DNA of 64,000 bases from Polytrichum commune. Lineage: Eukaryota; Streptophyta; Polytrichopsida; Polytrichales; Polytrichaceae. Shown one piece after another: positions 3,900 to 45,610 of this stretch. Every line of letters starts with the position of its first letter. The first letter of the stretch is position 1. Both the position numbers and the translations under genes were made by a program. The stretch covers positions 77,205,554-77,269,553 of the forward strand of contig OX485803.1 in the NCBI GenBank assembly GCA_950295325.1. The letters are read 5' to 3'. Below the pieces are notes generated by a model, which was not told the origin of the DNA, did not search any database, and saw nothing but the letters and a program-made list of their open reading frames with translations.

Positions 3900-6664
3900 T
3901 ATGTGAGATATTTAATGGCAATTTGGTGTAGGTGTTTCATAAGTGTTTTGATCTCGTTTTTGGGTATTTTAAGTTTTTCTAGGTCTTCAATTGGTTGTTT
4001 GTGGATAGCTCCTCTAACACCTGCCGTGATGGTGACGAGGGGGTTGACTTGCCATCCGGCTGCTCTAAGTGTTTTGTATGAGGGGGTTGTATTTGATGGT
4101 TTTTTCACTATGCGTTGTATTTGGGAATATGTCGTGGCAGTATGTGAATTCAATGAACTGTATGACATTTGATAAGGTTGGCGCTAGGGGGGGTTGGTTG
4201 TCCGTGGGAGCGCCTAGGACACATAGTATATGCATATGCATATAATATGTGTCCTAGGCATATGCATCGTGAAGGGGGGCATGTGCATTTGAGTAGCCAT
4301 TGTGGGAATGTATTGTCTTGTGGTCTAGAGTTTTGGTTGCCCGCATTTATGAGTGTATTATATGTCGTGTGTTTATTTGATTGTAGTGTGTGTATAATTT
4401 GGTGCATTGCTTTATTATGGCGTGCTATACGTAAACCTTTTATGTGGGGGTTTGAGCATGTAGAGAGTAGGTGTGGCCATGTGTCTATGGTATTATTGGG
4501 GCATAGCGTGCAAATTGGGTTTGGGAACAAGTTAGGCCAAAAGATGTTTTTACGATGGTTACCCATGTATTGGGCATAGCAGAGTTTTAGAGTTTGCGTA
4601 ATTTGGGCGTCTGTGATCTTGGGGTTTTTCCAAAATTGGTTTGAGAGTTTGTGGTCAATTTGGTCGTTGTTTGTCCATTTGTCTATGTATGTGAATTAAG
4701 GTTGGGCTAATCTGAGTTCTTGATTTTTGTGTTCTTTATTGATGAAAGTTTGTAGGTTGCGTATAGTACCCGTGTGGGTGCCCGTGGGGACTCCATTGAG
4801 CCAATATTGTGTAGTGTGTGCCGTATGTATCCTAGGGGTCTAGTAGGGCTCCGCTGTTAGGTAGTTGGTCCGCAATGTCGTTACCTATTATGCATGTATG
4901 TACTCTGACTTTATGTATTGTGGTTTGGTGTGTGGACCAGGTTATGTGGTTGACTATAGCGGATATGAGTAGTTTGTCCGGGTGGTTGTGTTGGGATGAC
5001 GGGTGTCGTATGTGGTTGTGTATTAGATATATGCTATTGAGGCTATCTGTAAATTTGTGTATGTCTTGCGTATTTTGTTGTGTATTCTAGACGGCTATTA
5101 GGATAGCATTTAGCTCCGCTCTAAGGATGTTTTGTAGACCTGGGAGTCTCTCTGCAATTCGGAGGTTATTGGCGGGACAATATACTCATGATCCCGTTGT
5201 GTTGCCTATGCCATTTTTGTCAGGGGGGATAAATGATCCGTCTGTGTATATGGATTGTTGGGGCTTGAATTTGAGAGGGTGTGTATTGTAGAGTTCTAGT
5301 GGTAGGGGTTGTGTTTGGTGGTTATTGTCCGGATGGTTGTAGTTTGAGGTTGCATGCCATGTGGGGGAATATTTCCATTTTTTTCCGAGGGAATGGGTGG
5401 GGGTCTTTTTGTGGGTGATTTTTCATTTTAATATTATACAACTCTCGTATGTTGGTTTCTAGCGCGTGGGGTACTTGTGGGGTGTCTAGGGGGTTTGGAT
5501 TTTGTATGCTTAGTATGGTAGTGTATTGGTTTTCTAATTGATGTAGGTATTTTGGCCATTCTGATGTGAGGTTGTATTGTATGGTGTTAGGTGGAATGGT
5601 TACTATCGTGTGTATTTCTACGTGGGTGATGGGAAGGGGGTTCTCTTTGTGGTTGATTATGACAACATTTTTGGTGTTGTGGTTTTCTTGGGCTGCCATG
5701 CGGGCCCATTAATTTGATGTCATGGCAGTTTTAAGGTCTGGGGGTGGGCTAAACCAATGCCTGCCCATTTTGATGAGTGTGCGTGGTCTGTTGAGCCAAA
5801 TATTATGTCCCGGTTGTGTGGGGAATTGTATTGAGTGATTGTTATTGGACACGTGAGGGGCGAGGAGTAATATGAGTGTGTAATATTGTACGTTTCTATT
5901 AAAGCTTGGAAGGTGGAGGGGTGGAGGGGTGGAGGGTTTGATGGTTATTATTTGGGTTATGTATTTTTTGGCTTTTTTTTTGGGAGTATTGTGACATACC
6001 TTTGGGTTAACCATAGAATTTCAGTGGTGAAATCTTGTGGTGGGGGGTTCAAGAAGTGTAGCATGGGATGTTTTTGGCTTTGGTTATGTCTTTCCCATCG
6101 CCATTGTAACCTTGTGAGTGGCATGGTGAGGATATATGCTCCCATTGGGTTGTATATATTGGTTTTCATTTCTTGTATTTGTATGGTAGGTTTGGTAGTA
6201 GTAAGATCTTTGTCTGGGATTCGTGTGAGGTTTGGGGCTATGATGGGTGGGCGGATACATCTTTGGTCCTTGGATTGCCTAAAGTTTATACAAGAGTTGT
6301 ATGCGGTGTGGTTTTTTGTTGGTGTTGCAAAAATTTGTGGAGTGCGAATATGTTATGATCAAGGGCGACATTATCATGATGGAGAAGTAGTGAGGCGTCT
6401 ATCCATTTGGTCGTGTTAGTTGGGGGGGGGGTGGCTCCATTGGCATAAGTAGTGTTGTTTTATGGCTTTTGCTCCCCATTTGTCCTTATATGTTGTAGTT
6501 TTGGCGTTTATTATGGCTTGTATTCGTTTTCCATTTGTGGGGTCCACTTGGTTACTAGTGTTTATGGGTGGGGTGGGCGTTGGTACTTGTTGTGGGGGAG
6601 GGTTGTGGATTGTGGGTGGGTTATGTGGGAATAGTAGTTGAGCTTGTGCCAAGGCTTCTTTGAT
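3900..6664 (-). pseudogene. LINE C-terminal part: RNase H and zinc-knuckle domains, broken
   Basis: The RNase H core is visible between about 5250 and 4860: an Arg-Ala-Glu-Leu-Asn-Ala segment, then Phe-Thr-Asp-Ser-Leu-Asn-Ser, then a Val-His-Thr/Gly-Asn-Asp-Ile-Ala-Asp-Gln segment. These are the E, D and D positions of the family. The 4566-4150 frame has Cys-Thr-Leu-Cys followed by Trp-Pro-His-Leu-Leu-Ser-Thr-Cys, the CCHC-like knuckle typical of LINE C-termini. Several stops and frameshifts separate the pieces. The segment near 6652-6416 continues the post-RT region across the 6667-7607 insertion. Confidence 0.75.
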
Positions 6665-6666
6665 TA

Positions 6667-7607
6667 CCGTACGTTAAGGGCAGGTTCGGCACAAAATAAT
6701 TCTAAAAATAGACGCCGATAATTTTGGAATATTATTGGCATTTTTTGCCGAATATAAAATTAATTATTTTTCAAAATTGCCGAAAAGTAAGAAATTTTTA
6801 CTTCTCACTAGAGTTTTACTTTCAGTGGAAGCATATGTGAATTTTGAAAGAGAGAAGGTGCTCCTTTTGTAATCAAGCTCACTTCCATTAGTCCACAAAG
6901 AATATGGGTTAAGAAGAAGCAAGACTCTAGGTGAGGCTTTTCAAATGTGTTGTACACAAATTTTTGGAGTCCAATTGAGCATAGAAGATGAAGTTTTATA
7001 GTATTTTTTCCAACTAACAAAAGTTGAGAAATCAATCCTTCTTCCACCTCCAACAAGTTTTGTGTCAAAATAAGTCTTTATGCAAAAGATATGGACAAAA
7101 CATTGCAGCCGTGTAAAGATCAAAAAATTAAAATGCGTTCATAACAGTTTTTCAGAGCTCATTTGTGCATAGAAGATCAACTTTTTTGGAATTTTGTTGG
7201 TCCAAGAAAAGTTTACAAATCAAGTAATCTTTCACCTCCAACAAATTTTATGTCATTTGAAGACTCTATGCAAATGTTATGCGAGTTATAAAAATGAAGT
7301 CTAACTCCGTGCTTCACCTCAAAGTTTACATATCCATATGCATTGTTGAACACAACTCCACTCTACTTGCATAAAGCATAGAGCATTCTCTACTCTTCAC
7401 TCACATCTTACTTGTCATTCAATGCAAGAGAGATGTACAAGATATAAGCTTAAATAGAGAATTAAAAATGAATTTAAGCTGAATTTTAAAAATTAAAAGA
7501 GAAAATTGCCAAAAATATGAATATACTATTTCTAGGTGCCGAACACTATTTTTTTACTTTTAATAATTATTCAGCAAGAGAGCGCCGAAGCTGCCCTTAA
7601 CGTACGG
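6667..7607. mobile_element. 941-bp TA-flanked DNA element in the LINE
   Basis: The ends are inverted repeats of 24 bp (beginning CCGTACGTTAAGGGCAG) with one mismatch, flanked by TA at 6665-6666 and 7608-7609. Removing the element and one TA rejoins the LINE frame, giving Lys-Leu-Ile-Lys-Glu-Ala across the junction. TTGCCGA-type motifs cluster just inside both ends. The interior has two diverged direct copies of a ~130-bp block (about 6967-7095 and 7153-7280) and no transposase. TA target choice fits a Tc1/mariner-type non-autonomous element, but the TIR is not one I recognise. Confidence 0.85.
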
Positions 7608-7609
7608 TA

Positions 7610-8357
7610 GTTTAGGGGTCGCTTTGAATTTTTGTTTGAACTCCTTAGGGGATAGGATTTGGTGTGTGTTCGGGTTTTGGATTTGGGTTAGGGCGGTGAT
7701 GTTGTACGTGTGTAGCTTATTAAGATTATTTTTGGTGGTTTGTTTTTGATCTTGGGAGAGTAGGGCGTAACATGTTGTTTGCAGCCATGTATATTCTATT
7801 GCTGACTGCTTTATGGGGAAGTTTTTGGTGGTCGTATGGACATGGATTTCATATTCCTGTTCTAGTAGGTATAGTGTGCGGGTTGTGGGTGATCTTACAC
7901 ATGCATGGTATTTTAGGCGTGGGAGGTGGCATGATCCCCCATATTTGGTTGTTATGTATTTGGTTAGACATTGGTAGATTTGGGTTAGTTGGCCTTGGTC
8001 ATTAAGGGCATTGAGTAGTTGCTTGCCAATACAATGAATGTAGTCGGGGAGGATGGAGGTGGTATTCATGCCAAAGTCTTCATGGGAAAGGTGACTTAGT
8101 GCATTCGTTGTGCTATTGGGTAGATTGCATATTTCTTCAGTGGGTTTACTAAGGACTTTGTCTAATTTTTTGATGTCAAGTTTAGAGAATGGGACTGCAT
8201 AATATGCGTAGGCTAATCCTGGTTTGAACACTGTATTTAGGATGTGGATCTTTTGTTTATTTATGGTTGGGGATGTTGTTGATAGTTTACTTTGTTTTTT
8301 GGCTTTTTCCATGGCGATGTATCTTTGGATGTTCCATTTTAGTGAGGGGATTAGATG
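7610..8357 (-). pseudogene. LINE post-RT (thumb/linker) region
   Basis: A long open frame of about 240 codons begins upstream of the solo LTR at 8363 and runs to the TA-flanked element at 7607. Its last residues, as translated straight through, belong to that element. The sequence includes a Leu-Lys-Trp-Asn-Ile-Gln-Arg-Tyr segment and a Lys-Pro-Gly-Leu-Ala-Tyr-Ala-Tyr-Tyr stretch, as expected between RT and RNase H of LINEs. It is unusually free of stops compared with the rest of the element. Confidence 0.7.
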
Positions 8358-8362
8358 GATGC

Positions 8363-9574
8363 TATGAGCCCAAAATGGTTGCTCATATTTGTTTTATGTT
8401 TAGAATCTATTTAGAATTGCATTTGGAGTGTTATTGAAACAATCAAAAGTATAAAAAGAGTGAGGCTTGATGTGGTTTATGTTTTAGGCCTTAAGCCTAT
8501 TTTGTGTGGTTAATTAGAAGCTTAGTGATATTAGGGAGTGTTTTGGTTAAGTGTGTAGTGTTTGGTGAAGCAAGGGGAAGGGCCTTGTATTTAAATGTTT
8601 GATTTAGAACATGTTTGTGTTGGTTTAGGGGGTGAGGGTTTAGTGGATAGGATAAGGTCCTATTAAGTAGGAGAAGGTTAAGGGGTTGTGGTCTTGGGTG
8701 CCTCTCCTCCTCCTCCTCTCCTCTCTTCCTTCTTCTTCCTCTCTTCTTCTCTCCTCTCTCTCTCTCCCCTTCCCCTCTAGGAATGTGAGCTCTTAGAGCT
8801 AGAAAATATGTGGGGATTAGGTGGTGTTTTAGTGGAATTAGTGGGCTTGGTTAGGGTAATTAGGTAGGGGGCTTGTTAGAAATTAGGTAGATGCTTAGTT
8901 AATCAGCTGGTTTAATGTGGGCTTAGTAACTGGAGACTGCCGAAGGCAGCTGGTTAAGGTGGAGATAGCAGTTGGGAGACTGCCGAAGCAGCTGGTTAAT
9001 GTGGATTGGTTAAGTTGGGCTTAGCAGTTGGGAGACTGCAGAGGCAGCTGGTTCATGTGGACTGGTTAAGTTGGGCTTAGCAGCTGGGAGACTGCATAGG
9101 CAACTGGTTAATGTGGACTGGTTAAGTTGGGCTTAGCAACTGGGAGACTGCAGAGGCAGCTGGTTAATGTGGACTGGTTAAGTTGGGCTTAGCAGCTGGA
9201 AGCCTGCCGAGAGGCAGCTGGTTTAAGGTGGGCTTAGCTAGTTGGAGTTAGGAGGATGGGTTGAATTAGGAGCCGGATATGGACCATTGGCGGACCGGCC
9301 GATCATGGGGAAGGCCTAAGGGCACTAATGGCACTTAGATGGTAGGCTAGGTAATTAGGGATTTAAGTGTTGGTGTGTAAGTATCTTAGGAAGAAGGAGA
9401 AGAGCATTTTTCAATGCTTGTATTCTTATTATGAAATAAATTGGTGTGCAAGATTTGATGGAAAATGTAACAGATTCTCACGAAGTTGGTAAGATGGAGT
9501 CATGGGAACACGAATGTGATATCCATTCCCTCACCCGGACTAGGACGCTTAAGGGTGGGCGGTTTGGCCTCACA
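8363..9574 (+). mobile_element. Solo LTR 1 (1,212 bp) with perfect 5-bp TSD
   Basis: The element begins TATGAGCCC, ends GGCCTCACA, and is flanked by GATGC on both sides (8358-8362 and 9575-9579). Removing it with one GATGC rejoins the LINE frame without a stop. A TATAAAAAG box lies near 8450. There is a pyrimidine-rich block at 8698-8780 and a 56-bp tandem repeat at about 8930-9235. No internal retroviral-like coding is present, so this is a solo LTR. A second copy in opposite orientation is at 11541-12808. Confidence 0.88.
8930..9235 (+). repeat. 56-bp minisatellite inside solo LTR 1
   Basis: About five copies of a unit containing GGGAGACTGCAGAGGCAGC and GGACTGGTTAAGTTGGGCTT recur every 56 bp. 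Solo LTR 2 of the same family lacks this array and has a different one. Confidence 0.8.
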
Positions 9575-9579
9575 GATGC

Positions 9580-11450
9580 CAAAATATGTATATGGTTCGT
9601 TTTGTGTCAAGATGGGGAAGGGTTTATTCTTGAAGTGGATCTAGTGAGCATGTATGTAGGCTTTGAAGAGAGTAGGTTTCAGGTTTGATTTGTTGGGGCA
9701 TCCTATGATGGCGCATTTGGAGATATTAAGGTATAGGTGTGCCCATTATGAGAATTTTTAGAGTTTGGAAATTTGTGGTTGGATTTGTGTTATGTTGTCG
9801 GTAAGATGGCTAGGTCATCAGCGTAGGCTATGGTGTTACATGTAGTTGATGATGTTTTAAAGTGATAACATGTGTTGTCTTTCTCTAGCCATCTGAGGAG
9901 TGGGTCTAGGAATATGATAAAGAGGTATGGACTTAGGGTGTCACTTTGGATGGTACCTCTGTTAATTTGTATGGGTGGGGTTGTTCCGAAGTGGCTTCCG
10001 TGGAAGGCGGTAGTTGAGTTTGTGTAGATATTGCCGATTAGGCTTATTGCATCACGGGGGTAGCCAAGATCCTTCATTATCGCAAGGAATCTTGCATGAT
10101 CTATGGATCCGAATGCATTTCTAAAGTCTATATAGGTGAGGTATATATCGTTGTTAGTTAGACGAGCATCTTCTAGTGTTGCTATGATCATTTGGATTAG
10201 TCTGGTGATTTTTCTTTGTGGTCTGAAGCCTTTTTGACTAAAGTGTATTATTTTGTGTTTTCCACCGTACTTTGTGAGGAGGGCAGTGAGCGTACTAGTG
10301 TAGAGTTTATATATAGTGTTGGCCAATGCGATGGGTTTATAGTTGGTGATTAGTAGTGGGTCTTTTTTTTGTGGAAGAGTATTGTTTTTATTATGTTTCC
10401 AGTATTGGGGTATATTTTTCTGGTGGTAACATTGCCAGAAGAAAAGAAATAATAAATCATAAAAAGGGGTGAAAGGGCTTTGAGGATTTCGTTTGGGATG
10501 TTGTCCGGTCCTGGAGTTTTTCCTCTGGCTAATTTTTTAAGGCTATTGTCAAATACTTCACGGGTGAAGTTTTTCGATATTCTGGGATGATGGGGGCCTC
10601 GTTTTTCAATGATGAATCCTTTTTGGTCCAACCACGAGTAGTTCCGGACTACACATTGGCAGGTTGTAGGGTGGTCAGTGGGGTCCTCGCACAGAGGGGC
10701 TTTCCTATTAAAGGAGTTTTGTTGTGTTTTTAGGATTTCTTGATTTATGTTTATTGGGTTTGTCAGGGTGTTGTCATTTGTATCTTTCAGGCAATCTAGG
10801 GATATATTTGTAGATGGTTTAAATATTCTTTTATGCATATTTTTGGATTTAGTGTTTAGTAGGAGCCTATATTTTGTGATGGTTTTCTTACAGTTGATGG
10901 CAGTTTGTTTGGTGGTAATCTTGTGGGCTTATGTTTTTGCTAGGTGTCCTATAGCAACGAGCTCTTCAATCCATTTTTTTACCATTGTGTCATTAGTGGG
11001 GGTGGGGGGGACAACCGTATTTTTTAGTGTATATAATTGTTGTATATCCGGGTGGTTTGGCCAATTTGCGCATGGTATGGAGTATGTTCTGCGTATGGCT
11101 TTTCTAGTGTTATGGTAGGTCTAGAGGTGACGTTTCCACAATTTTTGTTGTTTACGTGGGAGGAAGCCTCCTTGTTGGCGGGCCCTGTGCGGTAGTGTAT
11201 GGGGGGTTTGTGTGTTAAGACACGTTTCTTCGATGCAGGTGCTTACTAGTGTATTTATTATCTCTTGGAATTTTTCTTGGGCTTCCACCCATTCTGTGTG
11301 ATGGAGATGTGACATGTACATTTTTTGGGTGAGAGTTTGTATGGTTGGTGGTTTCTTGAAATTGGATGAGTATTTTTTGGATTTTTTCTGGTGGTATGGG
11401 GTATGTGATTCTTGGGGTGTATCTATCGGGGTTGTTTGTTTTCTAGGCAA
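9580..11450 (-). pseudogene. LINE reverse transcriptase domain
   Basis: The frame at 10326-9790 has classic non-LTR RT blocks: a Gln-Lys-Gly-Phe-Arg-Pro-Gln-Arg motif, a Tyr-Ile-Asp-Phe-Arg-Asn-Ala-Phe block holding the first catalytic Asp, and Tyr-Ala-Asp-Asp-Leu at 9811-9825 for the catalytic pair. Upstream, 10838-10350 holds the N-terminal RT part with Lys-Thr-Pro-Gly-Pro-Asp-Asn-Ile-Pro-Asn-Glu, and 11450-11121 the EN-RT linker. Frames change between these pieces, so the enzyme is not made. RT at the target site, primed by the nicked DNA, is the known role of the family. Confidence 0.88.
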
Positions 11451-11540: not shown

Positions 11541-12808
11541 TGTGAGGCCAAACCACCCACCCTTATGCGTCGTAGTCCGGGTGGGGGCATGGGGCTCACA
11601 TTCCTACTTGTCTAATTCCATTTTTTTAACGTCATTAACCTCCCTTGCATTCCACATCAATCTTGGCACCACAATTCATTCCACGATAAGAGTACAAGTG
11701 TTAAAAAACACTCTTCTCTATGATGGCCCTATTAGCACACTCTATTACAACCCCACACACCTCAACCACAAGTTCAACCCCCTAATGCCACCTTCTAACA
11801 CCTTGTGGCCCTCACTCTCTAATAAATTAATTCCCTAGCTTAATACTTCATGTTAAGCCTACTTAACTAGCCTACAACATAATTTAGCCTAAATGCTACT
11901 AGCCCCTACCCTTAACTCAATCTCAGTCCCACCCATGACTCTGGCATTCTACGCTGTTGGGGCTCGGGGTCAAACCCGTCATTGCCCGTCACCGGTACAG
12001 GTGGCCCAGTTTCGGCGACCCTCAACCTCCATTCCATCTCAGTAGCTCCAGGCTCGGCCTTGAGCCTTCCCTCCTTGGTTTCGGCGACCTTGAGCATTCA
12101 ATCCAGTTCAGTAGCTCCAAGCTTCGGCCTTGAGCCTCAATCTCAGTAGCTCCAAGCTCGGCCTTGAGCCTTCAATCCATGGTTCGGCGACCTTGAGCCT
12201 TCAATCCAGCTCGGTAGCTCCAGGCTTCGGCCTTGAGCCTCAATCTCAGTAGCTCCAAGCTCGGCCTTGAGCCTTCAATCCCTGGTTTTGGCGACCTTGA
12301 GCCTTCAATCCAGCTCAGAGCTTCGGCAGTCGCCCCCCCCCCCCCCCCCCCCCCCCGCCTTCGAAAAATGAGAGAGAGTGATCTTTTTGCGAGCTGCCAC
12401 TCCTCGCTACCTCGCAGCTGATCCATCCGAGAATCCAGTGTTGCTCCGAATTGCAAGGCCTACCCCTACCTGATTCTAACAAGGCTACAACCCAATTCCA
12501 CCAGCCCCCGGTCCCAATGTGGGCAGCTTCCAAGCCCAATTCAGGCACCTAACCTAGCCTTAAGCCCCAAGCTCACATTCCCCTTCCTAATAACAAAAGT
12601 ACTAACTACAATCATTTTAACTCAATCTAATTAACACTAATTCTCTCTCAACACACAAGTGACGTAAATCCCTTGTTAACACAAAAACACACCAAACCCA
12701 CGGGTTACACTCTTTTTAGTTTTAAAATAGTAATCACAATAAGAAAAAGAACAATTCCTAATAACTTCTGAGGTTAACCACACATGTGGGCACCGTTTTG
12801 GGCTCACA
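11541..12808 (-). mobile_element. Solo LTR 2 (1,268 bp) with perfect 5-bp TSD
   Basis: On the - strand it starts TGTGAGCCCAAAA and ends GGTTTGGCCTCACA, matching solo LTR 1. GTGGG flanks it (11536-11540 and 12809-12813). The segment at 11541-11720 aligns with 9400-9574 in reverse. Its middle holds a ~103-bp tandem repeat (about 12030-12320) and a run of 24 C (12333-12356). It interrupts the LINE endonuclease. Confidence 0.88.
12030..12356 (+). repeat. ~103-bp tandem repeat and C24 homopolymer in solo LTR 2
   Basis: Units built on CTTGAGCCTTCAATCC and CAGTAGCTCCAAGCTCGGC recur about every 103 bp, and an uninterrupted run of 24 cytosines follows at 12333-12356. On the LTR's own strand this is a G24 tract. 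The array is absent from solo LTR 1. Confidence 0.75.
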
Positions 12809-16390: not shown

Positions 16391-16627
16391 ATTACATGAT
16401 ATAGACCAAGTATGTAAGAGTTTTGTATGAAGAAGCCATAAGACTTATAAACTTATGTATATATATTTTTTAATTAGTGAAAGTAAAAACAAGCATAGAA
16501 TTAATGTATTTACTTTTTTTAATTAGTACGTATTGTATTTGTATTAAAAACAATTTACAAAAATACTCCTAAACATTATTACAGTAATTATTGTAATTAT
16601 TTTAACTACATTAATTACAATAATTTC

Positions 16628-16945
16628 AGTATTTTACTGAAAATAGCAAATTTCAGTATTTACTTAAATTAGCAAATTTCAATATTTACTTAAATTAGCA
16701 AATTTCAGTATTTACCTAAATTAGAAAATTTCAATATTTACTTAAATTAGCAAATTTCAGTATTTACCTAAATTAGCAAATTTCAATATTTACTTAAATT
16801 AGAAAATTTCAGTATTTACTTAAATTAACAAATTTCAGTATTTAGTTAAATTGGTAATTTCCCCATTTACTTAAATTGGTAATTTCAGTATTTACTCAAA
16901 AGGGTAATTTCAGTATTTACTTAAATTGGTAATTTCAGTATTTAC
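16628..16945 (+). repeat. 26-bp minisatellite in the CACTA element
   Basis: About twelve copies of a unit like AATTTCAGTATTTACTTAAA recur every 26 bp, with variants (CAATATT, GGTAATTTC) towards the right end. Confidence 0.85.
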
Positions 16946-17254
16946 ATTAATTAATTAAATTAGTTATTACATTAATTATAGTAAATATATTATTTATATT
17001 AATTACTTATACTAGTAATTACAATAATTAAAAACCTTTTGTAACACCTTTTGTTGTTAATAAATATGAGACACATGCTCAGGTGAAGGGAATAAGTTAA
17101 ACGTGAAATATATAAATCTGATGACAGAAAATTGACACAAATTTTGAATAATGTCCGAATTGACAAAAACTCATAGCTTTGAGCTGATTTTGTCACTTCG
17201 GACATTTTAGTGTCACATTTTTGTCAATTATACACCCATTTCCTTGTAGTGTTT

Positions 17255-18380
17255 TGTAATCTAAATATTTTTATAAAATATAAGTTAGTTTTTGCGATTC
17301 ATTTTTTACAAAAATATCTTGATTATATTGAATATGATTTTTTCTTATAAATTAAATACTAATTTAATAGATCACACTATCTACTTAATCTAATAGCAAA
17401 ACCCCACTTTTTCATTAAATTTTTCACCTAAACTCTGAATTCTTCACTAAAATTAAAATTTTAATCATTTATTGAAACTAAATTCTCAATCTTGATTCAA
17501 CAAAATTCTTTGCCCTTCATTCAAACAATTCAATCTTTTACTTAAAGTAAACTCTCAATCTTTCATTCAACTAAATTCTTCATTCTTCACTCAAACCACT
17601 TAATATTTGATTCAAGTTTAACTCTTAATCTTCCATTCAAACTAAACTCTCCATTCTAAACTCAAATTTCTCAAACCTCGTTTCTTCACTTATGTATTAT
17701 TACTTGTTGTTTCCAGCATTTGACATTTTTGTAGCATTGTTGCATCACTTTTACATCACTCAAGCACCATTCATAGCCCATTTAATTTATACAATATTCT
17801 TAGGCCTCTCACCAATGGTTTTCTATGGTATCTAATGCTTTGTCAATGGTCTCCACCGCTCGTCCGAGGTCTTTAATGCCTTCGATTCCTCCAAGATCTT
17901 CAACGTCTCCAAATTCCTCCAAGGTAGTCAATGCCTCGAAGCTCCCCTAAACTCCTCCAAGGTCTTCAACTCTTTCAACTCCGAATGTCTAACTCATCAA
18001 AGATCTTCAACTCCTCAGACTCTAAATGTCCAACTCATAACGATCTACCATCTTTATTCTACCTCTTAGATTTTATTTTTCCTTGCTCATTTTGGCCAAT
18101 TGAAATACCATTGGTATTAGGGCATCAAGGCCCCTTAAGCAATTAGATGTCGGCCGCCGCTGCTGCTGGTAAACCCTAACCTTCCCTAACCCTTACTACA
18201 CATCCTACCTACCAAAACCTACTTACCAAATACTTCCTACAAAGTCCTCCCAGTCTTGAACTCAAAACTAATTGTCAAACAAACAACTAACTAGAATATG
18301 ATTACCACAACATCATACCAATCTCCATATATATATATATATATATAATAACAATAACACATGTAAATATCTATGTTTTA
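17255..18380. other. Low-complexity, repeat-like DNA
   Basis: From 17450 to 17680 degenerate TTCATTCAA/ACTCTCAATC units recur. From 17855 to 18030 a TCCAAGGTCTTCAAC-like unit recurs. An (AT)n tract lies at 18327-18347. There is no convincing gene. Confidence 0.5.
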
Positions 18381-19125: not shown

Positions 19126-19534
19126 TCATGCAATCGCCTCAAGGGGAATTGGCCCGGCCTCTAGGTGTAAAGCAGCTCTAAGTATAGCGGCCACTACATC
19201 CCATGATGCATCAATTTGTAGATAATATGGCTTGTCAAACTGCAAGTCTAAATACAGGATTTGTCCACACCCCGTCACTGAGGCGTTGTGAATGAGCCTC
19301 TTGATTTCGCGAGCATGGTGCATCCGGACCGTTGATCCACCAAGGCCCATCCAAGGGCCTCAATGATCCTAGGTGGCAAGGGGGGTGGGGGTGGTGCTTG
19401 CCACCAAGGCGGGGTAGGGCCGTGGGCCTCATGTCTTTTTTCAGGGAGGCTAGCTTGAGGGTGGTGTCGGCACTGTCGGGCCTAGTAGCTAGGCGGGCTC
19501 GGTGGGCTAGGCAGCTAGGTAGGCTAGGTGGGCC

Positions 19535-19725
19535 TACTTACTAACTAGCTATTTAGTTACCCTTACTCTACTTACTAAATAACTACTGTAGTTGGTTACC
19601 CTTACTCTACTTACTAAATAACTAGTTGGTTGGTAACCCTTACTCTACTTACCAAATAACTAGTTGGTTACCTTTACTCTACTTACTAAATAACTAGTTG
19701 GTTACCCTTACTTGCTAAGGGCCAC
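19535..19725 (+). repeat. ~35-bp tandem units in the MULE arm (inverted copy at 21107-21300)
   Basis: Repeated TTACCCTTACTCTACTTACT followed by AAATAACTAGTTGG units, four to five times, occur in each arm as mirror images. Confidence 0.8.
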
Positions 19726-20690: not shown

Positions 20691-22136
20691 GGCCCATATA
20701 CATTTGTAAATAATTATATCATACTTAGTATCACCTACATTACATAATCTATATATTATGCCTATTGTCAAGCAAATTGAATATTTTCATCTGGAAATGT
20801 AATGCCTCTAATGACATTACCATTATGTTGTAATTCTATGCTATATGATTGTGGATAGTCTCCCTCCTTGCAATGGTGTAACATGATAGCCTACCAATAT
20901 ACCATTTGTTTGTTTCGTCATTGAATATCTCCACCAACTTTCCAACCAATGACCCATCAATGCCGATTGTTCCAAATTCTAACTCGCTTCTAGTCACTTG
21001 CGAAGCACAATTCCTACATGAGGTGGAATCATAACTAGATAAAATTAGACAGTTTCTTGTGGGCTCTCACAATTTCATGGTCATGGCTCTTAGCTCGTGT
21101 GTGAAGTGGCCCTTAGCAAGTAAGGGTAACCAACTAGTTATTTAGTAAGTAGAGTAAGGGTAACCAACTAGTTATTTGGTAAGTAGAGTAAGGGTTACCA
21201 ACCAACTAGTTATTTAATAAGTAGAGTAAGGGTAACCAACTACAGTAGTTATTTAGTATGTAGAGTAAGGGTAACCAAATAGCTAGTTAGTAAGTAGGCC
21301 TACCTAGCTGCCTAGCCCACCGAGCCCGCCTAGCCACTAGGCCCGACACCACCCTCAAGCTAGCCTCCCCGAAAAAAGACATGAGGCCCACGGCCCTACC
21401 CCGCCTTGGTGGCAAGCACCACCCCCACCCCCCTCGCCACCTAGGATCATTGAGGCCCTTGGATGGGCCTTGGTGGATCAACGGTCCGGATGCACCATGC
21501 TCGCGAAATCAAGAGGCTCATTCACAACGCCTCAGTGACGGGGTTGTCCACACGGCATGTTTAGCATTGCAAATGCACTCTGTTCCGACTCTGCCCATTT
21601 TTAGGGGACACTCTTCTTGAGCAGCCTATACAAAGGGCTTGCCAAGTGTGGATAGAATGCATGTAGTGATTAACTACATGTAGGTTGAACGCAAGTTGGG
21701 TAGATTTTGTCCTATGATTAACATATTAGAAAAATTTATGCAATCTATAAGAACATTTAAAAAAAGAAGGTAAATATGTACATGTATATTTACTTATTTA
21801 GGCACATAGCATATCCTACATACAAATGCATGTACTCTAAATCATTTTTCATTCATTCATGACTTTGAATTGAGCTTTCCTATACACCGAATTCCCTAAA
21901 ATTGAGGCATTTTGATGATTGTTTCATTTAGGTCATCTAGCCCAAGAATTTCTAGTAAAATTAGACTTAAATGTTTTGAATAGTTTCCACCCAACCTACT
22001 ATTAGCTTACGGTAATCATAGGAACGATTGTACGCCTTGACAGTTCTTGGTGTTGGGAACTCTTGGGCCACGGCCACTTTTTGGGATCAGGTTTGATTCC
22101 TTTGGTTGATAATCACATGTCCATGATTATATACTA

Positions 22137-31975: not shown

Positions 31976-33604
31976 TGATTGGCACATATAAACCCTGCCC
32001 CATCGGATTCCATGTACATTTGGATGAGTTTATCCTTATTCCCACTAGAATCTAGTGGGTGATGGCCTACATGGAAACTCACTTTCACATCCTAGGAGAA
32101 GTGCGGAAAAAAATTTAACCTTTTAAGACCCTTCTACCTTACACACACATAAACCAAAAAACCCAAAAAATCCACTCAAAAGAAAACCAAAAGCAAAAAA
32201 GAAAAAAGAAAATGAGGAAATAAAGGGAAGAAAAAGTGAAAAAAGGGAGGACTCCAAAGGAGGAAGTAATGTGCTCCGTTGTTCCGAAGCATGGGAAGCG
32301 GTAGTAGGTAGCAGACAACCGCCGCTTCTTCGCAGGCTCCTTCCGATGAATGCTGAATCATCGACATCTTTAGTAATTTGTGACCACGATCTTCCTTTCC
32401 CCTTTCCAGATTTGCACAAACACTTGGCAATCCTACGGAGATTTCCTCTTAACTTACTCTGCCACCTCCTCACATTTGCTGCATTGCTTGCTTCCCATGC
32501 TCCTCTCAACGAATGTACTGACATACCTCTCTATACGCACATTCGAGCATCCTTCTCCCACCACAATGAGGTGTAATTGAGAATCCTGTATCTCGTCTGC
32601 TTCAAGTGATGAGAATCTCACTCATGGACACAGGTGAGTTAAAACTGATGATGATCCTCCTCAGCAATTCACACTGTGCTGCAGCAATTCGCAGAACAAC
32701 TGGTTGTATGTATGTATTGATACGGGACGCAACAAGGATCCAAATGGCTTTGGTTGGTTCGTAGGATTAGGCGGGTTTTAGGTTGGGGTGAGACGGTTGG
32801 CATTTGGCAGGAAAAAAAAAACATTCTAGGCGCTATGATATGGTATGATATGATGTGTGAGTAGGTGTGAGAAATCGGGTGCAATGGGTGGTTGTGAGAA
32901 TTGGTGACCTATTTATCTGGTTGTGGTAGTTTCTTGACTTTTGTTTGAAATTGGGAGCTGGGAGGGATTTAAAGTCCCCTTTGCAACATTCGTAGGGATT
33001 GTAGCGCTGTTCAAAAGTAGGCCCGGCCTATCGGGAACGAATGATCCAGCCGCTGCTGTTTCTTGTGTCTGATGTTTCTGTAATTCCTCATGGGTAACTG
33101 ATAATCGTACTTAGCTGCATTCGAATATGGATACATAGTGGGGTGTGGTTTTTGGCCGAGTTTCGATAATCTTGGGCAACTTTATAATGGTCGGAGCTAA
33201 GCTAGGGGTTTTGTATGGGGTTCCTCGGGATACCAAGTTTTTGTGCAAACCTCGGAAATGGGCGGGACAAAGAGGACAGAAGCGAGGTTGCTTCGATTTA
33301 CTTACGAGGTGGTTGCACTTTTTGGGTAATGTGGGTTCAATGCCTGAAAGAAGCCGGCGGTCGTGGGCGAGCTGTGGTGGTAGGACAGTGGATGGAATCT
33401 GATTTTCTTGGCGCTCCGTGCAGGATATTGGGGACATACAATACATGACGAGGGTGGTGGTACCGGCAATGCGTGGGATTGCACAACAGCAGTTGCCTCC
33501 TCCTCTTTCTCATTGCTGCTGCTCTGGTGAGGCCTGCATTGCTGCTGCAAGGATCGTCACCGCTTTGTAGTGTAGTTGTGATTGCTTTGCTTCGGCTGGG
33601 CGTC
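31976..33604 (+). promoter_or_regulatory. Upstream region and probable 5' leader of the BOR gene
   Basis: The first part is AT-rich. A strongly purine-rich tract (A/G on the + strand) lies at about 32155-32262. GC content rises from about 32270 to the start codon. A donor-like CAG|GTGAGT at 32632-32639 could mark a leader intron, but no acceptor can be assigned with confidence. Several upstream ATGs exist. The AUGUAA minimal uORF used by flowering-plant BOR1 leaders for boron-dependent translation was not found in 32581-33604. Confidence 0.4.
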
Positions 33605-34103
33605 ATGGGGAAGGCTGTCGTGCCTATGCGCGGCATTCGTGCGGATTTCAAGGCTCGCCTGGCATGCTACAAGCACGACTGGATCGGTGGCTTCAACTCC
33701 GGCTACCGGTGCGTGAGAGAGAGAGAGACAGACTTTGTGCCCTTCCCTCTTCTCCTTCTGTTCTTGCAAACAAAACAAAATCCAATATTGCAGTAGCCAA
33801 CCTTGGATTCCTCAGGCATTGTGCTTCTTCTTCCGATGCTGTTCTTCTGTTGTTGCAAAGTAAAGAGAATACAATGCTTAACCCAACTAGGAGTGGGAAA
33901 TAGTGGTTCTTAGTCTTCCTTATATCTGTGAGCATGCGGCAGGCATTGTGGTGCGGTTTCTGAGTCACTTGAAGAGTGCCGGGTAACCAGTCTGTGAGCC
34001 CTATTGCCTGTGTGGCTGAAGGCGTGATGGGTAGATTTGGGCCTGAAGTTAAGGCAAAACTGTGTTAAGTTTCATCTTTGTAGCTTGATGCCTCATGCTC
34101 TGA

Positions 34104-34134
<31 letters not shown>

Positions 34135-37100
34135 CTGTGTGAGTGTGTGTGTGTGTAAGTTTGCATATTTTCTGCTTTAAGCTTTCTTTGAAGGGTTGCG
34201 AATGTGGTGGGAATGCCTATTTAGTTTGAGGGATTCATGTGCTCAATTTGTTGACAAATTTCGTTCTTTTTTTGTTGGTACCAGGATCTTAGCAGCCACA
34301 GCATACATATTTTTCGCATCAGCGCTCCCTGTTATTGCCTTCGGAGAGCAGCTGGACCGAGACACAAGTAATTGTTTGATGACCTTTTCCTGAGAGTTGG
34401 TTATTCTGAACTTCAGATGATTACGACTGATAAGAATTTGTTACATCTGAGTTGCACAAGAGGTGGCGGTTATGTTTACGTTATCATGATATTGGATACG
34501 TCTGGGACCATGAGCTAATAGATGAGTTCCTCCAAATTATGTGCAAACATGTTGATCGCAATGCTTTTCCTCTTTTATGCTGAATACAAAGTCACTCCAC
34601 AGTAAGCTCTGTAACGTCCTCACAAGCTGACCGTTCTTCAAACCTGGTCTTCTGACAAGAGTCATATATTTGCACTAGCTAGTTCACCTGAAGAAACTTA
34701 AATTCTGGTGAAGGGTAAAGTTGACGAGTGCTCACTTCAGCATGATGATACTTAACGTGCATGGACTTGTGTGTAAACAGATGGAGTAATAACTGCAGTG
34801 CAAACGTTAGTGTCCACAGCTATTTGTGGCATCGTGCAATCTGTCATTGGAGGTCAACCGCTTCTAATTGTTGGAGTTTCTGAGCCCACTTCCCTGGTCT
34901 ACACATATATGTTTAATTTTGTGAAGAACAGATCACAATTGGGACCCCAGCTTTTTCTGGCCTGGGCAGCGTGGTATGTCATTTGTTCTCACGCTAGCTT
35001 GGATTCTCTTCCTATTTTCAAAATGCTTGAGATGCATGGCACTTGTTCACCTTTGGGACAGGATCTGTGTTATTACAGCTACAGGTTCTGATTTTAAGAT
35101 TAGCTCTTTATGCACTAACTTTCTTCGGTGCTTGCAGGGTGTGTGTGTGGTCAGCTGCTCTAATAATTATTCTTGCTATTCTGGGAGCTTGCTCTTTTAT
35201 CAACCGATTCACCCGAGTGGCCGGGGAGCTCTTTGGTATCCTTATAGCAGTGCTCTTTGTGCAGCAGGCAGTCAAGGTAGCCACCAGCTACTTCATGTAA
35301 AGCGAAATAATCAATGTCCCTATCAATGTCCATAATGCATCAGAGTGGAGAAATCCCGCTCTAATAGTTGTCATTTGTGTTTCAGGCAGCTCTACATGTA
35401 GGATAAGCTTAGTTTTTCTGAGTTGGCCACGCAGTAAGAGCTCCTCTGGGGGCTGTTCTATCACTTGTCATATGAATTTGTGAGTCTGAATGGATGTTGA
35501 GTTGGCAGTAGCACTCTTCCTTTTTGGAGCATTTCATTTTATTTTATTTTATTTTATTTTATTTTGGTTTTTCTCTTTGCAGGGAGTAGTGGATGAATTT
35601 CGTATACCAAATCTAGAGGATCCAACTCTTGAGCAATTTCAATACTCATGGCGATTTGGTAATGGCATGTTTGGGTTGGTCCTTACATTTGGGCTCCTCT
35701 GGACTGCTGTGAAAAGCAGGAAGGCACGGTCGTGGCTATATGGCTCAGGTACTTCCTTAAACATCATTCTCTAGGCTTTAGACATTCACGCACTAGAGAC
35801 AGCTTGCATTCTTCAATCCAATGGGACTTTTCATCAGAAGTTGGTGCTCTATGATTTCCCATTGATTGTTTTGCCTACAAAATCAATTCCCACTTGCAGT
35901 GCATGCTTGGAGGTAGTGTTTGAATGTGAATGAAGGGCAACCTATTTTGGTTCAAAGAGGGCCAAACTCATTTTAGCACCTCTTGACATGCCAAAATAAG
36001 TTTGACCCTCAATGAACCGATATAGCATGTTTATCATTCAAACCTCCATACTACCTCCGAACATACACCAAAAACTTACCAAACATGGAAGGTGTTGTAT
36101 GCAAAGCAACCGACTCTTGACCTGAAGTCCAGCTGAAGTAAAGGATAACTCTATTATCTGCTATTACAGTCTGTTTACCTGCATATGAAAATCACCTGTT
36201 TTATTTTCATCTTGGGGTGGTTACGTCAGATGGTACCTCCTGCTTACTCTGTTTTTCCTCGGTGTGGGTTGTTCCAGAATTTGTGAGGGGGTTCATTGCC
36301 GATTATGGTGTTCCCCTTATGGTGGTTGTTTGGACTGCCATTTCCTACGCACCATACAGATCTGTTCCTCCTGGAATACCAAGGCGCCTGTTTACTCCAA
36401 ACCCATGGGACCCAAAAGCGACAACTCATTGGACAATTGTTCAGGTCAGAGGCTTTCTGTGTATGATGCTTCTTTTTGCAATATCATTATGGCAAAGAGA
36501 ATGATGTTAGTACTGCTGTAGCAGTATACTGTGTCTTCTTAATTGTAAGTTTGAGTATTTTGTGCATTGCCTAATTATCGCCTTTTTATTTGGGCATTGT
36601 TCCGCAGGATATGATTCAAGTCCCAGCTCTTTACATATTAGGAGCTGTAGTTCCAGCTCTTATGATTGCTGTTCTATACTACTTCGACCACAGTGTATCT
36701 GCTCAGTTAGCTCAACAGTCAGAGTTCAATCTACGGAAACCGTTTGCATTTCACTATGACATGTTCATTTTGGGCTTTATGGTAAACGTTCTAATTGATA
36801 GAATCCACTAGGGAACTATGCCTGCTGGTAAATGTCCATCTCTAGATAGATTGTACATAAGTTTGTCCATTTCCTCCTTGCACAAGAAGTGGTTCATCAA
36901 TTTCAAATTTAGCTATCAAACCATGCTGATGTAATTTAGGGAGTCTACTTGGTTTCCATGTGAAGCAGCTATGAGCCTTCCAAAGTATTGAGATCTCAGT
37001 ATCTGGTGCTTTGGGTTTGTGTTTGTTAGTTGAAAGCCTCAGTTGTTCACCTAGTAAAATTTGTTTGTACAGGTTCTTGCGTGTGGATTACTAGGCCTTC

Positions 37101-40100
37101 CCCCATCCCATGGAGTGATTCCACAATCACCCATGCACACTAAAGCACTGGCCTCGTTAAAAAGGGAGGTGAGGTTCTCATAGTAGATTTTTATTTTTTT
37201 GGTGCAGAAAATTCACAATAGAGAATTGTTTCAAAAGGCAGTTCTTTGCCTCTTCTATCAGCTCAGCAAGGTTTGTGTGAGTCTTAGAATGCAGTAGGTA
37301 AAGAGAAGTTATAGGTTCTGGGTGGGTGAAATTATATGACCTATTATTGATGTATTTGTGTATCTGTATGCAGCTCGTGCGCAACAAATTGGTGAGGCGA
37401 GCAAAGAGCAGTTTGAAGCAAAATTCGTCCTTGACAAAGCTCCACAGTGACTTGCAAGATGAATTTCACAAAACTGAGTCACCTCTTCCATATCCATGTA
37501 CTCCCCGGGTACGTCTCATTTTCATCAGTTACCTTTGATTTAGTGAGGTCTGTTTTTCTCAATCTTTTGAATCTGAGACGTCCTTTGCATTGCAGGCGAC
37601 CAATGACCTACACTTCAGCATCAAAACCGAGGCACATGCAGGAGAACTGGGTTTTGATCCCGAGAAGGATGTCGACCTGCTTCTACCTGTTGAAGTGAAA
37701 GAGCAGCGGTTGAGCAATTTGTTACAGTCATTGCTAGTTGGCGGATGTGTTGCGGCAATGCCTCTCCTTAAGAAGATTCCAACCTCGGTGTTGTGGGGCT
37801 ACTTTGCTTACATGGCAGTTGAAAGCCTGCCTGGGAATCAATTTTGGGAAAGACTCTGTCTAGTTGTTACCACTCCGAATCGTCGATACAAGTAAGTTCA
37901 TTGCAACTATTTGAAGTGTCTTATCTTCACACATACCTATTTTGGATTCTCTCTTCCAGGTCTACACTTTAAATATGTGTTTTTTTTGTCTCTTGCTTCA
38001 AACGGTGATGCAGTTTCGTGAATTCCCTAGTACAGTTTTCTTCTATACTTAGAGGCTTGTAGTAGTAGCTACGTGGAGAAGTTCACAGTTTGGACACATG
38101 TAGCATTTCAGCAAGTTGTGTCTTAGAAAAGCAACCCTTGCTGAAAAACTTTTTTTTTTATCTAACAAGCATCTCCAATTCAAGAAATACATCACAATTA
38201 GGGTGCAATATGGCCAAGTATGTGCGGGAATGGAATATTAGTTTCCATGCAATACCAAGTATTCTTAGCCACCATTTCTACACATGATTGTATTTTTTTC
38301 GTTCTTTTCAATCTATGGTGGACATAAGTTAGTTTTAGGCCTTGGGACACAACCTCATAAAATTATGCCTTGCTATGATTTTTTCATGAATATTTGCAAT
38401 CAAAATCTTATATACAGCTTTTTGTCATGTCAGGATGTTAAATTTAGCTTTCAATTATATGAGTTTAATCTCAAACTGTTTTGTAACAAAATTTCTTGTA
38501 ATGTAAACAACATTTGAGCATTGAAAGTCTTTCATAGAAAGTCATCTCTTAAGGGTCAAAGGGCGTCCACCTTTTTTATTATTCTAAGGGTTAACTTAAT
38601 TTCATGGGTGGGTTTTTTTTAACAGGTTGTTGGAAACAAGACATCTTATGTTTATGCAGACGGTGCCTTTCAAAGTCATTGTTTGCTTCACTTTGTTCCA
38701 GCTGGTATATATGCTGAGTTGCTTTGGCATAACCTGGATCCCTATAGGCGGTGTACTATTTCCTGTCTTGATTATGCTTCTCGTCCCAGCACGCCAATAC
38801 CTTCTTCCACGCTTCTTTAAAAAAGAGCATTTACAAGAGCTTGACGCTGCAGAATACGAAGAAGCAACTGCACTTCCCCTAATATTGGCAGTGAAGGTGA
38901 GCTTGTTTCTTCAATCTGGGTGTTCATCTTCCATTTTATATAAAGTAAACCAGCCTAATTTGATTACTCATTTAATCATGGACTCACATTTGAGTGGCAT
39001 GTGGTTACGTGTGGAATTAAGACCAGACACCAAAAAGATATGTGTTCAAAAGAGATTGAATTCTTGATCAGAATTTGTTAACTATTCTAAGTGCAATAGA
39101 CAACACAATTTGTGGGGGGACCTATATGATTGTTTAAGAAAGAGAAATTACACCTTGATGATAAATAAGATATTCATATGAGCTTTGAAACCTGAGGAAG
39201 ATGACTGTCGTCTCAATCTGGAATTGCTAATCATCTCATACTATTTGCGTGTGTAATTCTCTAGGAGAAGTGGGTGCAGAGGTAAAAAGGTCCATCTTCG
39301 TGCTTCTTAAGTGGTTACAAAAGTGGGTTTTCTTTTCTGTCAAACAGGAGGCTGAAGCCAATGGTCTTGGAAAAGTAAATGTCATTGATGTTGAAGCTAT
39401 TGATGAGGAAGCGATGGACCAATCTGTAACCATAAGTCGGGGGGAGTTTAAACACACTCACCCTGCCCCAGTGCACGCCCTTTCAGGTAAGACTGGCACA
39501 GAAAGTGTTCATGTGTCGTGTTTTAAAATTGTGATCCAGATAATAGAGTAATTGTTAAAGTTTCGCCAATGCTCATGTTCTAATAGGGAGTTCCTTTCCG
39601 CTTTTAATATTCTATAATGTTTAACGAGTGTTCAAGTGGTGTTGGAACCAATGTTGGTCTAGTGTATAGATGGATGCATAGTATCAATAATCAACATTAA
39701 TAAGGGCATCGAAGAACCTACCTGTGACCTACCCATGAGAATCAAATTTGTAATACCAGTTGATTATTGATATATGATGGATATGTCAAGGGGAGAGAAT
39801 TATTGTGTACTCAAGTTATTTGGGTCAAAGGCATTCTAAACCATATTGATACTAAGACGATTTTGCGTAGGTATGAAGGTTTTTGCAAGGTATATAGGCC
39901 TAAATGTTATCAAAAACAAAAATAGTGTCAAATACCCATATCCTACTGGTATCAAAAGAAAGAAATCCTCATGTTAGGTACCCAAAAAAAGGACAATACC
40001 AGACCAACACTCGTCGTAACTTCTAATTTGGGTGAAACAAAGGGAAGGCACTTGACTGTTGCCAAACCATGGCTATATAAAAAAGAATTTTATGGCAAAC

Positions 40101-40465
40101 TTTTGAAGGCACTTAAAATGGCACTCTCGAAAGGTTGGCTAGAAATTCATTTTTTAATATAGCCAAATTTTGGCCAAATGTCAAACGCCTTCCCTTCATT
40201 TCACCAAACTTAGGGGTTCTGATATCTCTGGTGTGTTCAGTTTCATAGTCAGATTATTTTGAGGAATACAAGACTTGCAGCCTCTGAAATTGTTTTCTGT
40301 TGGCATTTCAATTTTTACTTCATGGTGATCATTTTGATGCTTGGAAAAGGATAGAGGGAATACTGTTTGTAACTGCACCTTGTCGACATGGCCTGTACCT
40401 ATAGCATCTGACCCTTCTTCGTTTTCACTGCAGCTTCTCACATCTCAGAGGACATTGATTCTTAA
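33605..40465 (+). CDS. BOR: Boron (borate) efflux transporter, BOR/SLC4 family, 13 exons
   Basis: This is a membrane exporter of borate, related to Arabidopsis BOR1. Exons: 33605-33708, 34285-34367, 34781-34973, 35138-35276, 35583-35748, 36278-36444, 36608-36781, 37073-37168, 37374-37508, 37596-37891, 38626-38896, 39348-39486 and 40434-40465. All introns are GT-AG and the sum is 1,995 nt (664 aa plus stop). The start fits because residues 1-11 align with the family N-terminus and no in-frame ATG lies upstream. Visible motifs are [40 protein letters not shown], Asp311 in YYFDHS (the residue needed for transport in BOR1) and [10 protein letters not shown]. Multiple hydrophobic segments fit the 14-TM SLC4 fold. 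The three BOR1 sorting tyrosines (373, 398, 405) are Arg, His and Phe. The C-tail is short. The last exon is the least certain: a second frame would run to 40529. Confidence 0.93.
34107..34155 (+). repeat. (AT)14 followed by (GT)n microsatellite in BOR intron 1
   Basis: An uninterrupted AT run at 34107-34134 is followed by a GT-rich run. This stretch is likely to vary in length. Confidence 0.95.
35536..35565 (+). repeat. (ATTTT)6 tract before the exon 5 acceptor of BOR
   Basis: Six ATTTT units lie 17 bp upstream of the acceptor AG at 35581-35582, acting in effect as the U-rich region of the splice site. Confidence 0.9.
35900..36066. mobile_element. Foldback MITE in BOR intron 5
   Basis: The ends pair (TGCATGCTTGGAGGTAGT with the reverse complement of 36034-36066, which contains GGAGGTAGTATGG). 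An inner pair, GGGCCAAACTCATTTTAGCA / TGCCAAAATAAGTTTGACCC, extends the hairpin. It is about 167 bp and non-coding. Confidence 0.7.
39600..39970. repeat. Dispersed repeat in BOR intron 12 shared with 62640-62960
   Basis: Blocks such as GGTATATAG, CCTACTGGTA/CCTACTAGTA and a GGTACCCAA/GATACCCAAG end recur in the same order at 62806-62960. It is non-coding and diverged. Confidence 0.5.
40026..40210. mobile_element. 185-bp MITE in BOR intron 12
   Basis: The left end TTTGGGTGAAACAAAGGGAA pairs with the reversed right end TTTGGTGAAATGAAGGGAAGG, followed by GGCTATAT on both sides. TA flanks it (40024-40025 and 40211-40212). It ends about 220 bp upstream of the last BOR exon. Confidence 0.75.
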
Positions 40466-44124: not shown

Positions 44125-45538
<1,414 letters not shown>

Positions 45539-45610
45539 TGCGGAGGAGGGATAGCGCGGTGGCGAGAAGGGGCAGAGTTCGATCTGCGAGAGAGATCGCA
45601 AAAGAGGGAG

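Follow-up and report, generated by a model that had tools for sequence, protein, structure and literature searches.

We characterized a BOR gene in a 64,000-nucleotide stretch of the Polytrichum commune genome (the window; contig OX485803.1) from its exon structure and from alignment of its product with AtBOR1 of Arabidopsis. The gene occupies 33605–40465 on the + strand, where 13 coding exons, running from the ATG to the stop codon, specify a protein of 664 residues. Exons 1–7 are located at 33605–33708, 34285–34367, 34781–34973, 35138–35276, 35583–35748, 36278–36444 and 36608–36781, and exons 8–13 at 37073–37168, 37374–37508, 37596–37891, 38626–38896, 39348–39486 and 40434–40465, the last including the stop codon. 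All 12 introns have GT donors and AG acceptors, and the joined frame is open. The junction between exons 8 and 9 (37168/37374) is in phase 0, and inspection by eye revealed no alternative GT at the end of exon 8, from the Lys of LASLK to the donor. Cereal BOR genes have about 13 exons on average (PMC9002812).

The BOR gene and its family in the assembly

The protein matched the SLC4 transporter domain (PF00955) with an E-value of 1.8e-88 and 298.1 bits, against a cut-off of 27. A phmmer comparison with AtBOR1 (PDB 8teg) aligned residues 3–656 at E=1.3e-283, and in a MAFFT alignment 408 of 646 aligned residues (63%) were identical; both programs left the alignment gap-free up to residue 415. 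Like AtBOR1, the protein has a long intracellular insertion between TM10 and TM11, in which 74 of the 82 AtBOR1 columns 369–450 are aligned and the remaining 8 are gaps. The last exon contributes 11 amino acids that are without homology support, and unspliced read-through would give a different short tail. Judged by homology over nearly its whole length, the window gene is a plant BOR borate exporter, and its product would export borate across the plasma membrane.

Upstream of the coding region (32600–33604), no minimal AUG-stop uORF was found and longer upstream ATG frames are present, the position of the 5′ UTR being unmapped. A promoter and terminator scan over exons 8–9 relied on bacterial consensus patterns and is uninformative for this gene. 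The introns hold two imperfect inverted repeats, at 35899–36068 (80-nt arms, 71% complementary, 10 nt spacing) and at 40018–40218 (49-nt arms, 76% complementary, 103 nt spacing), which are perhaps small transposon remnants.

To assess copy number, we searched the assembly with the protein at E≤0.1; each of the 12 matches was an exon of the window BOR gene. No second BOR was found by this search, in which a missing match does not prove absence, and the gene is apparently single-copy. The original prediction had offered 'specialised' as one reading of the protein; in the sense of a paralogue, this is unlikely given the search result. PF00955 itself had eight matches in the assembly, four in the window BOR gene and four at one other locus, on contig C2 (5903200–5912900, minus strand). 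The gene at this locus is another member of the SLC4 family; it lacks the BOR loop, and its first-exon frame has no early Met. Its joined 480-residue core matched anion exchange proteins 3 and 2 and NBCe1 with E-values from 3.8e-76 to 1.2e-72, the best being anion exchange protein 3 (3.8e-76), and AtBOR1 with 1.4e-30. Its resemblance to AtBOR1 being the weaker one, the gene was rejected as a second BOR. Searches of genome contigs for relatives of this core yielded 19 pattern stretches, none of which was confirmed. Likewise, none was confirmed among the stretches with the pattern of BOR residues 285–518 (tblastn), of which there were 35 in genome contigs and 7 in viral contigs.

Tyrosines of the TM10–TM11 loop

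In AtBOR1, the loop carries three YxxPhi motifs, at Y373, Y398 and Y405. By gap-free counting, the original prediction had assigned Arg, His and Phe to these positions and had found D311 kept, and the MAFFT alignment confirms both claims. AtBOR1 Y373 corresponds to R373 (codon AGG, 37163–37165, exon 8), Y398 to H398 (CAC, 37443–37445, exon 9) and Y405 to F405 (TTT, 37464–37466, exon 9), all read on the + strand; the Asp aligned with AtBOR1 D311 is encoded at 36686–36688 in exon 7. The interval originally marked for the finding starts at 37166, immediately 3′ of the codon for R373. No YxxPhi motif occurs anywhere in residues 369–445 of the window protein. The fourth AtBOR1 loop tyrosine, Y414, is kept but is not part of a YxxPhi motif.

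Outside the loop, the window BOR has seven YxxPhi matches (at 34, 42, 103, 255, 334, 491 and 517) and AtBOR1 has five (at 42, 103, 334, 495 and 553, within residues 3–656); four of the seven (34, 255, 491 and 517) have no aligned Tyr in AtBOR1. Since such matches exist, a claim that tyrosine signals are absent holds for the loop alone. Many of them probably lie in membrane helices, and YKLL at 517, which may be exposed to the cytosol, could act as a replacement sorting signal. Position 373 has a further aspect. Segment 369–373 of AtBOR1 switches fold (PMC11494103), and R373 adjoins K372 within it, so that this position may serve the transport cycle as much as sorting.

How surprising the loss is depends on what it is compared with. 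In columns 369–412, 19 of the 44 gap-free positions are identical between the two proteins and 25 differ, while identity is 248/366 before the loop and 101/140 in 451–590; the loop is thus a fast-evolving part of BOR. Given 25 changed columns out of 44, the probability that the three named columns all differ is 0.17. Because only 19 of the 44 columns around the tyrosines are identical, loss of the three named positions is unremarkable. Counted by residue type, AtBOR1 has 17 tyrosines outside the loop (up to residue 613), of which the window protein keeps 14, against none of the three named (Fisher p=0.018); this test is post hoc, uses one sequence pair and omits Y414 of the loop, which is kept, and Y624 of the tail, which is Glu in the window protein. 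Over residues 3–656, 15 of all 22 AtBOR1 tyrosines are kept, and the transmembrane ones may be constrained for other reasons. The absence of the tyrosines is real yet only mildly surprising: by position it is no more than chance would give, and by residue type it is weakly more. Among the papers and passages listed by literature searches, none dealt with columns 373, 398 and 405 in bryophyte BORs, and a search on the evolution of moss or clade III BORs gave no match.

Other control signals and clade placement

The original prediction had credited the three tyrosines with both polar placement and boron-triggered endocytosis. By and large, this account holds. BOR1 variants lacking the Tyr or the di-leucine motif show neither polarity nor boron-induced vacuolar transport (PMC5698777), and the triple-Tyr mutant undergoes no borate-dependent endocytosis or degradation in tobacco BY-2 cells (PMC3954168). 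Two qualifications apply: the BY-2 mutant is still polar, if somewhat more weakly, so that polarity there is largely Tyr-independent (PMC3954168), and at low boron the Tyr and di-leucine variants are endocytosed normally (PMC5698777). Polarity indices of 1.2 for BOR1(Y373A/Y398A/Y405A), 1.2 for BOR1(L455A/L456A) and 2.0 for the wild type have been reported (PMC4737877). Since mutating the di-leucine costs BOR1 as much polarity as mutating all three tyrosines, the sorting code comprises more than the tyrosines alone. In addition, the association of BOR1 with AP-2 does not need YxxPhi (PMC7253699), and AP-2 recognises AtBOR1 residues 637–704 (PMC11494103).

The phrase 'without that sorting code', used of the window protein, is accordingly correct for the loop tyrosine signals but not for the di-leucine or the ubiquitin lysine, both of which are kept. 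The acidic di-leucine DVDLLL (residues 444–449; 37668–37685, exon 10) corresponds to EIDDLL of AtBOR1 (451–456); it is the only [DE]xxxL[LI] match in the protein, and its L448 and L449 align with L455 and L456. The ubiquitin acceptor K590 of AtBOR1 (PMC8136889) is represented by K583 (38819–38821, exon 11). For Arabidopsis and five cereals, the di-leucine has been reported in BOR1-like proteins only, and K590 in BOR1-like proteins as well as in AtBOR3 and AtBOR5; both FxxM and YxxM motifs are found among BORs (PMC9002812). In the tail, TISRGEFKH (residues 636–644; 39429–39455, exon 12) takes the place of the autoinhibitory TRSRGEFRH of AtBOR1 (PMC11494103), the substitutions being R637I and R643K; R637A by itself enabled AtBOR1 to rescue yeast at 80 mM boric acid (PMC11494103). 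The AtBOR1 tail runs to residue 704 (PMC11494103, PMC8136889), whereas the window model stops at 664 and retains only 637–664 of the stretch recognised by AP-2.

The description 'active exporter' had been drawn from D311, the proton-site Asp that AtBOR1 needs for transport (PMC8136889). This residue is kept, but activity does not follow from it alone. Of the seven pocket residues studied in Arabidopsis, five are kept (D311, G356, P359, Q360 and P362), and two are changed, A315 to S315 (36698–36700) and the substrate-pocket residue N355 to H355 (37109–37111). These two changes fall where Arabidopsis mutations alter degradation and polarity: N355A transports slightly less and is degraded more slowly, and A315V stopped degradation within 3 h (PMC8136889). 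T410 of AtBOR1 is reportedly phosphorylated and needed for transport, a point on which the authors of that study call for further investigation (PMC11494103). The window protein has S410 instead (37479–37481), followed by Pro as in AtBOR1, and four of the five basic residues around the phosphate are kept (R327, K328, K372 and K461), K31 being replaced by Asn.

These features place the protein in neither clade I nor clade II. It has the five kept pocket residues, the di-leucine, the SRGEF tail core and an equivalent of K590 in common with AtBOR1 (clade I), and it differs from AtBOR1 in lacking Y373, Y398 and Y405 and in carrying A315S, N355H, T410S, K31N, R637I and R643K. The clade I features found are the loop acidic di-leucine and the K590 equivalent, and those lacking are A315, R637 of TRSRGE, and YxxPhi at 373, 398 and 405; K590 does not mark clade I strictly, since AtBOR5 of clade II has it. 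AtBOR4, also of clade II, presumably shares Arg373 and Phe405 with the window protein. In clade II, which includes AtBOR4, the first Arg of TRSRGE is likewise replaced, but the clade II motif is TTSRGE (PMC11494103) and residue 637 of the window protein is Ile, not Thr. BOR4-like proteins moreover have no di-leucine (PMC9002812), whereas the window protein has one. Clade II BORs are described as having one residue fewer than clade I between H12 and the tail motif; in the MAFFT alignment the window protein has 7 extra residues between the DAAEYEEA segment and this motif and none missing, with gap placement there uncertain. Because it fails features of both clades, we file it with neither. Moss BORs form clade III, in which A315 is not conserved (PMC8136889), and the Physcomitrella BORs are set outside clades I and II with a transport function described as unclear (PMC5698777). 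With S315 and its position outside both clades, the window protein appears to fit clade III best. Yeast Bor1p is a more distant borate exporter related by sequence (phmmer E=1.5e-51), in which D347 corresponds to D311 (PMC8136889), but it has no aligned counterpart of the intracellular BOR loop. The window BOR is an unexceptional relative whose combination of features is informative, not a transporter without sorting signals.

Origin of the loop state and surroundings of the gene

The reading to which we lean, with moderate confidence, is that of a clade III-like BOR exporter whose regulation relies on ubiquitin and the di-leucine rather than on loop tyrosines. On this reading, the protein would export borate over the plasma membrane, and excess boron would remove it by ubiquitination at K583. 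The di-leucine would assist sorting, and the loop tyrosines would not be used. Tail autoinhibition would be weaker than in AtBOR1, R637 being Ile, and the YxxPhi trio would be a layer added later, on the vascular-plant line leading to clade I. The 'ancestral' state named in the original prediction would fit the loop columns. As the di-leucine is present in a protein outside clades I and II, it would predate the split between them, although it may also be kept for structure, as it opens the conserved stretch 451–590. AtBOR1 with mutated tyrosines remains undegraded at high boron, in Arabidopsis as in BY-2 cells, despite having K590, so K583 and the di-leucine may not suffice for degradation.

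The sorting code may have been assembled stepwise, a possibility that we put forward tentatively: the ubiquitin lysine and the di-leucine would have been in place before mosses and vascular plants diverged, and the YxxPhi tyrosines would have been added toward clade I together with stele-ward polarity. If so, boron-triggered degradation would be older than the tyrosine layer and separable from it. A natural exporter that has the di-leucine and the lysine without loop YxxPhi separates these layers and lets one ask about their need and order, which bears on the evolution of lateral nutrient-transporter polarity in land plants. The finding is modest, as it concerns one sequence and moss BORs were already known as a separate clade.

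Secondary loss would be the mirror image of this history: the YxxPhi trio would go back to the ancestor of land plants and have been lost in this lineage, since a rootless plant without a stele-side barrier needs no lateral polarity. From one such sequence, the ancestral and the lost state would look the same. A single base change would turn CAC of H398 or TTT of F405 into a Tyr codon, but AGG of R373 matches neither Tyr codon at any position. The non-loop tyrosines are mostly kept (the 14 of 17 above), and RG-II-like structures in several bryophytes amount to about 1% of the angiosperm level (PMC6482432), at which directed boron supply may matter less. As the comparison contains no Tyr-bearing outgroup and the yeast Bor1p loop is unaligned, we regard this history as unlikely, though it survives better than the two that follow.

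A constitutive, unregulated boron excluder like the clade II protein BOR4, with neither stele-ward polarity nor boron-triggered degradation, is decidedly improbable. R637I does remove the Arg whose mutation relieves autoinhibition, and the positions at which N355A slows and A315V stops degradation both differ here, albeit to other residues. The Arg373 and Phe405 that we take AtBOR4 to have would point the same way. So would the occurrence of FxxM motifs among BORs (PMC9002812). Against these stand the kept di-leucine, which BOR4-like proteins lack, the kept K590 equivalent, and a tail that reads TISRGE and not TTSRGE. Finally, it is hardly credible that a gene-model or assembly error hides the tyrosines: the exon model was built from genomic sequence only, but we rejected this explanation on the GT-AG sites on both sides, the conserved flanking residues and the gap-free match to AtBOR1 across exons 8 and 9.

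Several observations concern the surroundings of the gene. Seven large contigs of chromosome size account for 406.07 of the 407.81 Mb of the assembly, and n = 7 is typical of Polytrichales. A contig of 146,561 bases with a full rbcL (C8) is likely the plastid and could hold a duplicated stretch. Its rbcL is followed downstream by trnR-CCG and by an accD-like frame (315 residues). The contig is longer than the plastids reported for three mosses (123.54–124.96 kb). It carries rpoA, and two weak rpoA-like matches on contigs C2 and C6 are below the family cut-off. Plastid rpoA is described as present in early-diverging mosses including Polytrichopsida and Buxbaumia, and absent in Tetraphis and arthrodontous mosses (PMC4035505). 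For cysT, the assembly gave no match in a search that was positive in 14 of 14 control genomes. Plastid cysT is present in liverworts and hornworts. Together, the seven contigs, the plastid rpoA and the missing cysT match suggest that the source is an early-diverging moss, perhaps one of the Polytrichales.

Within the window, the minus-strand frame at 45056–45610 presumably encodes ribosomal protein L8 of the large subunit. Another minus-strand frame (9790–10536) contains a YADD stretch that by eye resembles reverse transcriptase, and the minus-strand frames at 4150–4695, 7560–8393 and 10350–10928 may share a decayed element with it. Tandem arrays with scores of at least 150 and units of 26–103 bases are found at 8950–9231, 12036–12322, 16622–16953, 17463–17650, 19534–19712 and 21119–21297, and the units of the last two look, by eye, mutually reverse-complementary.
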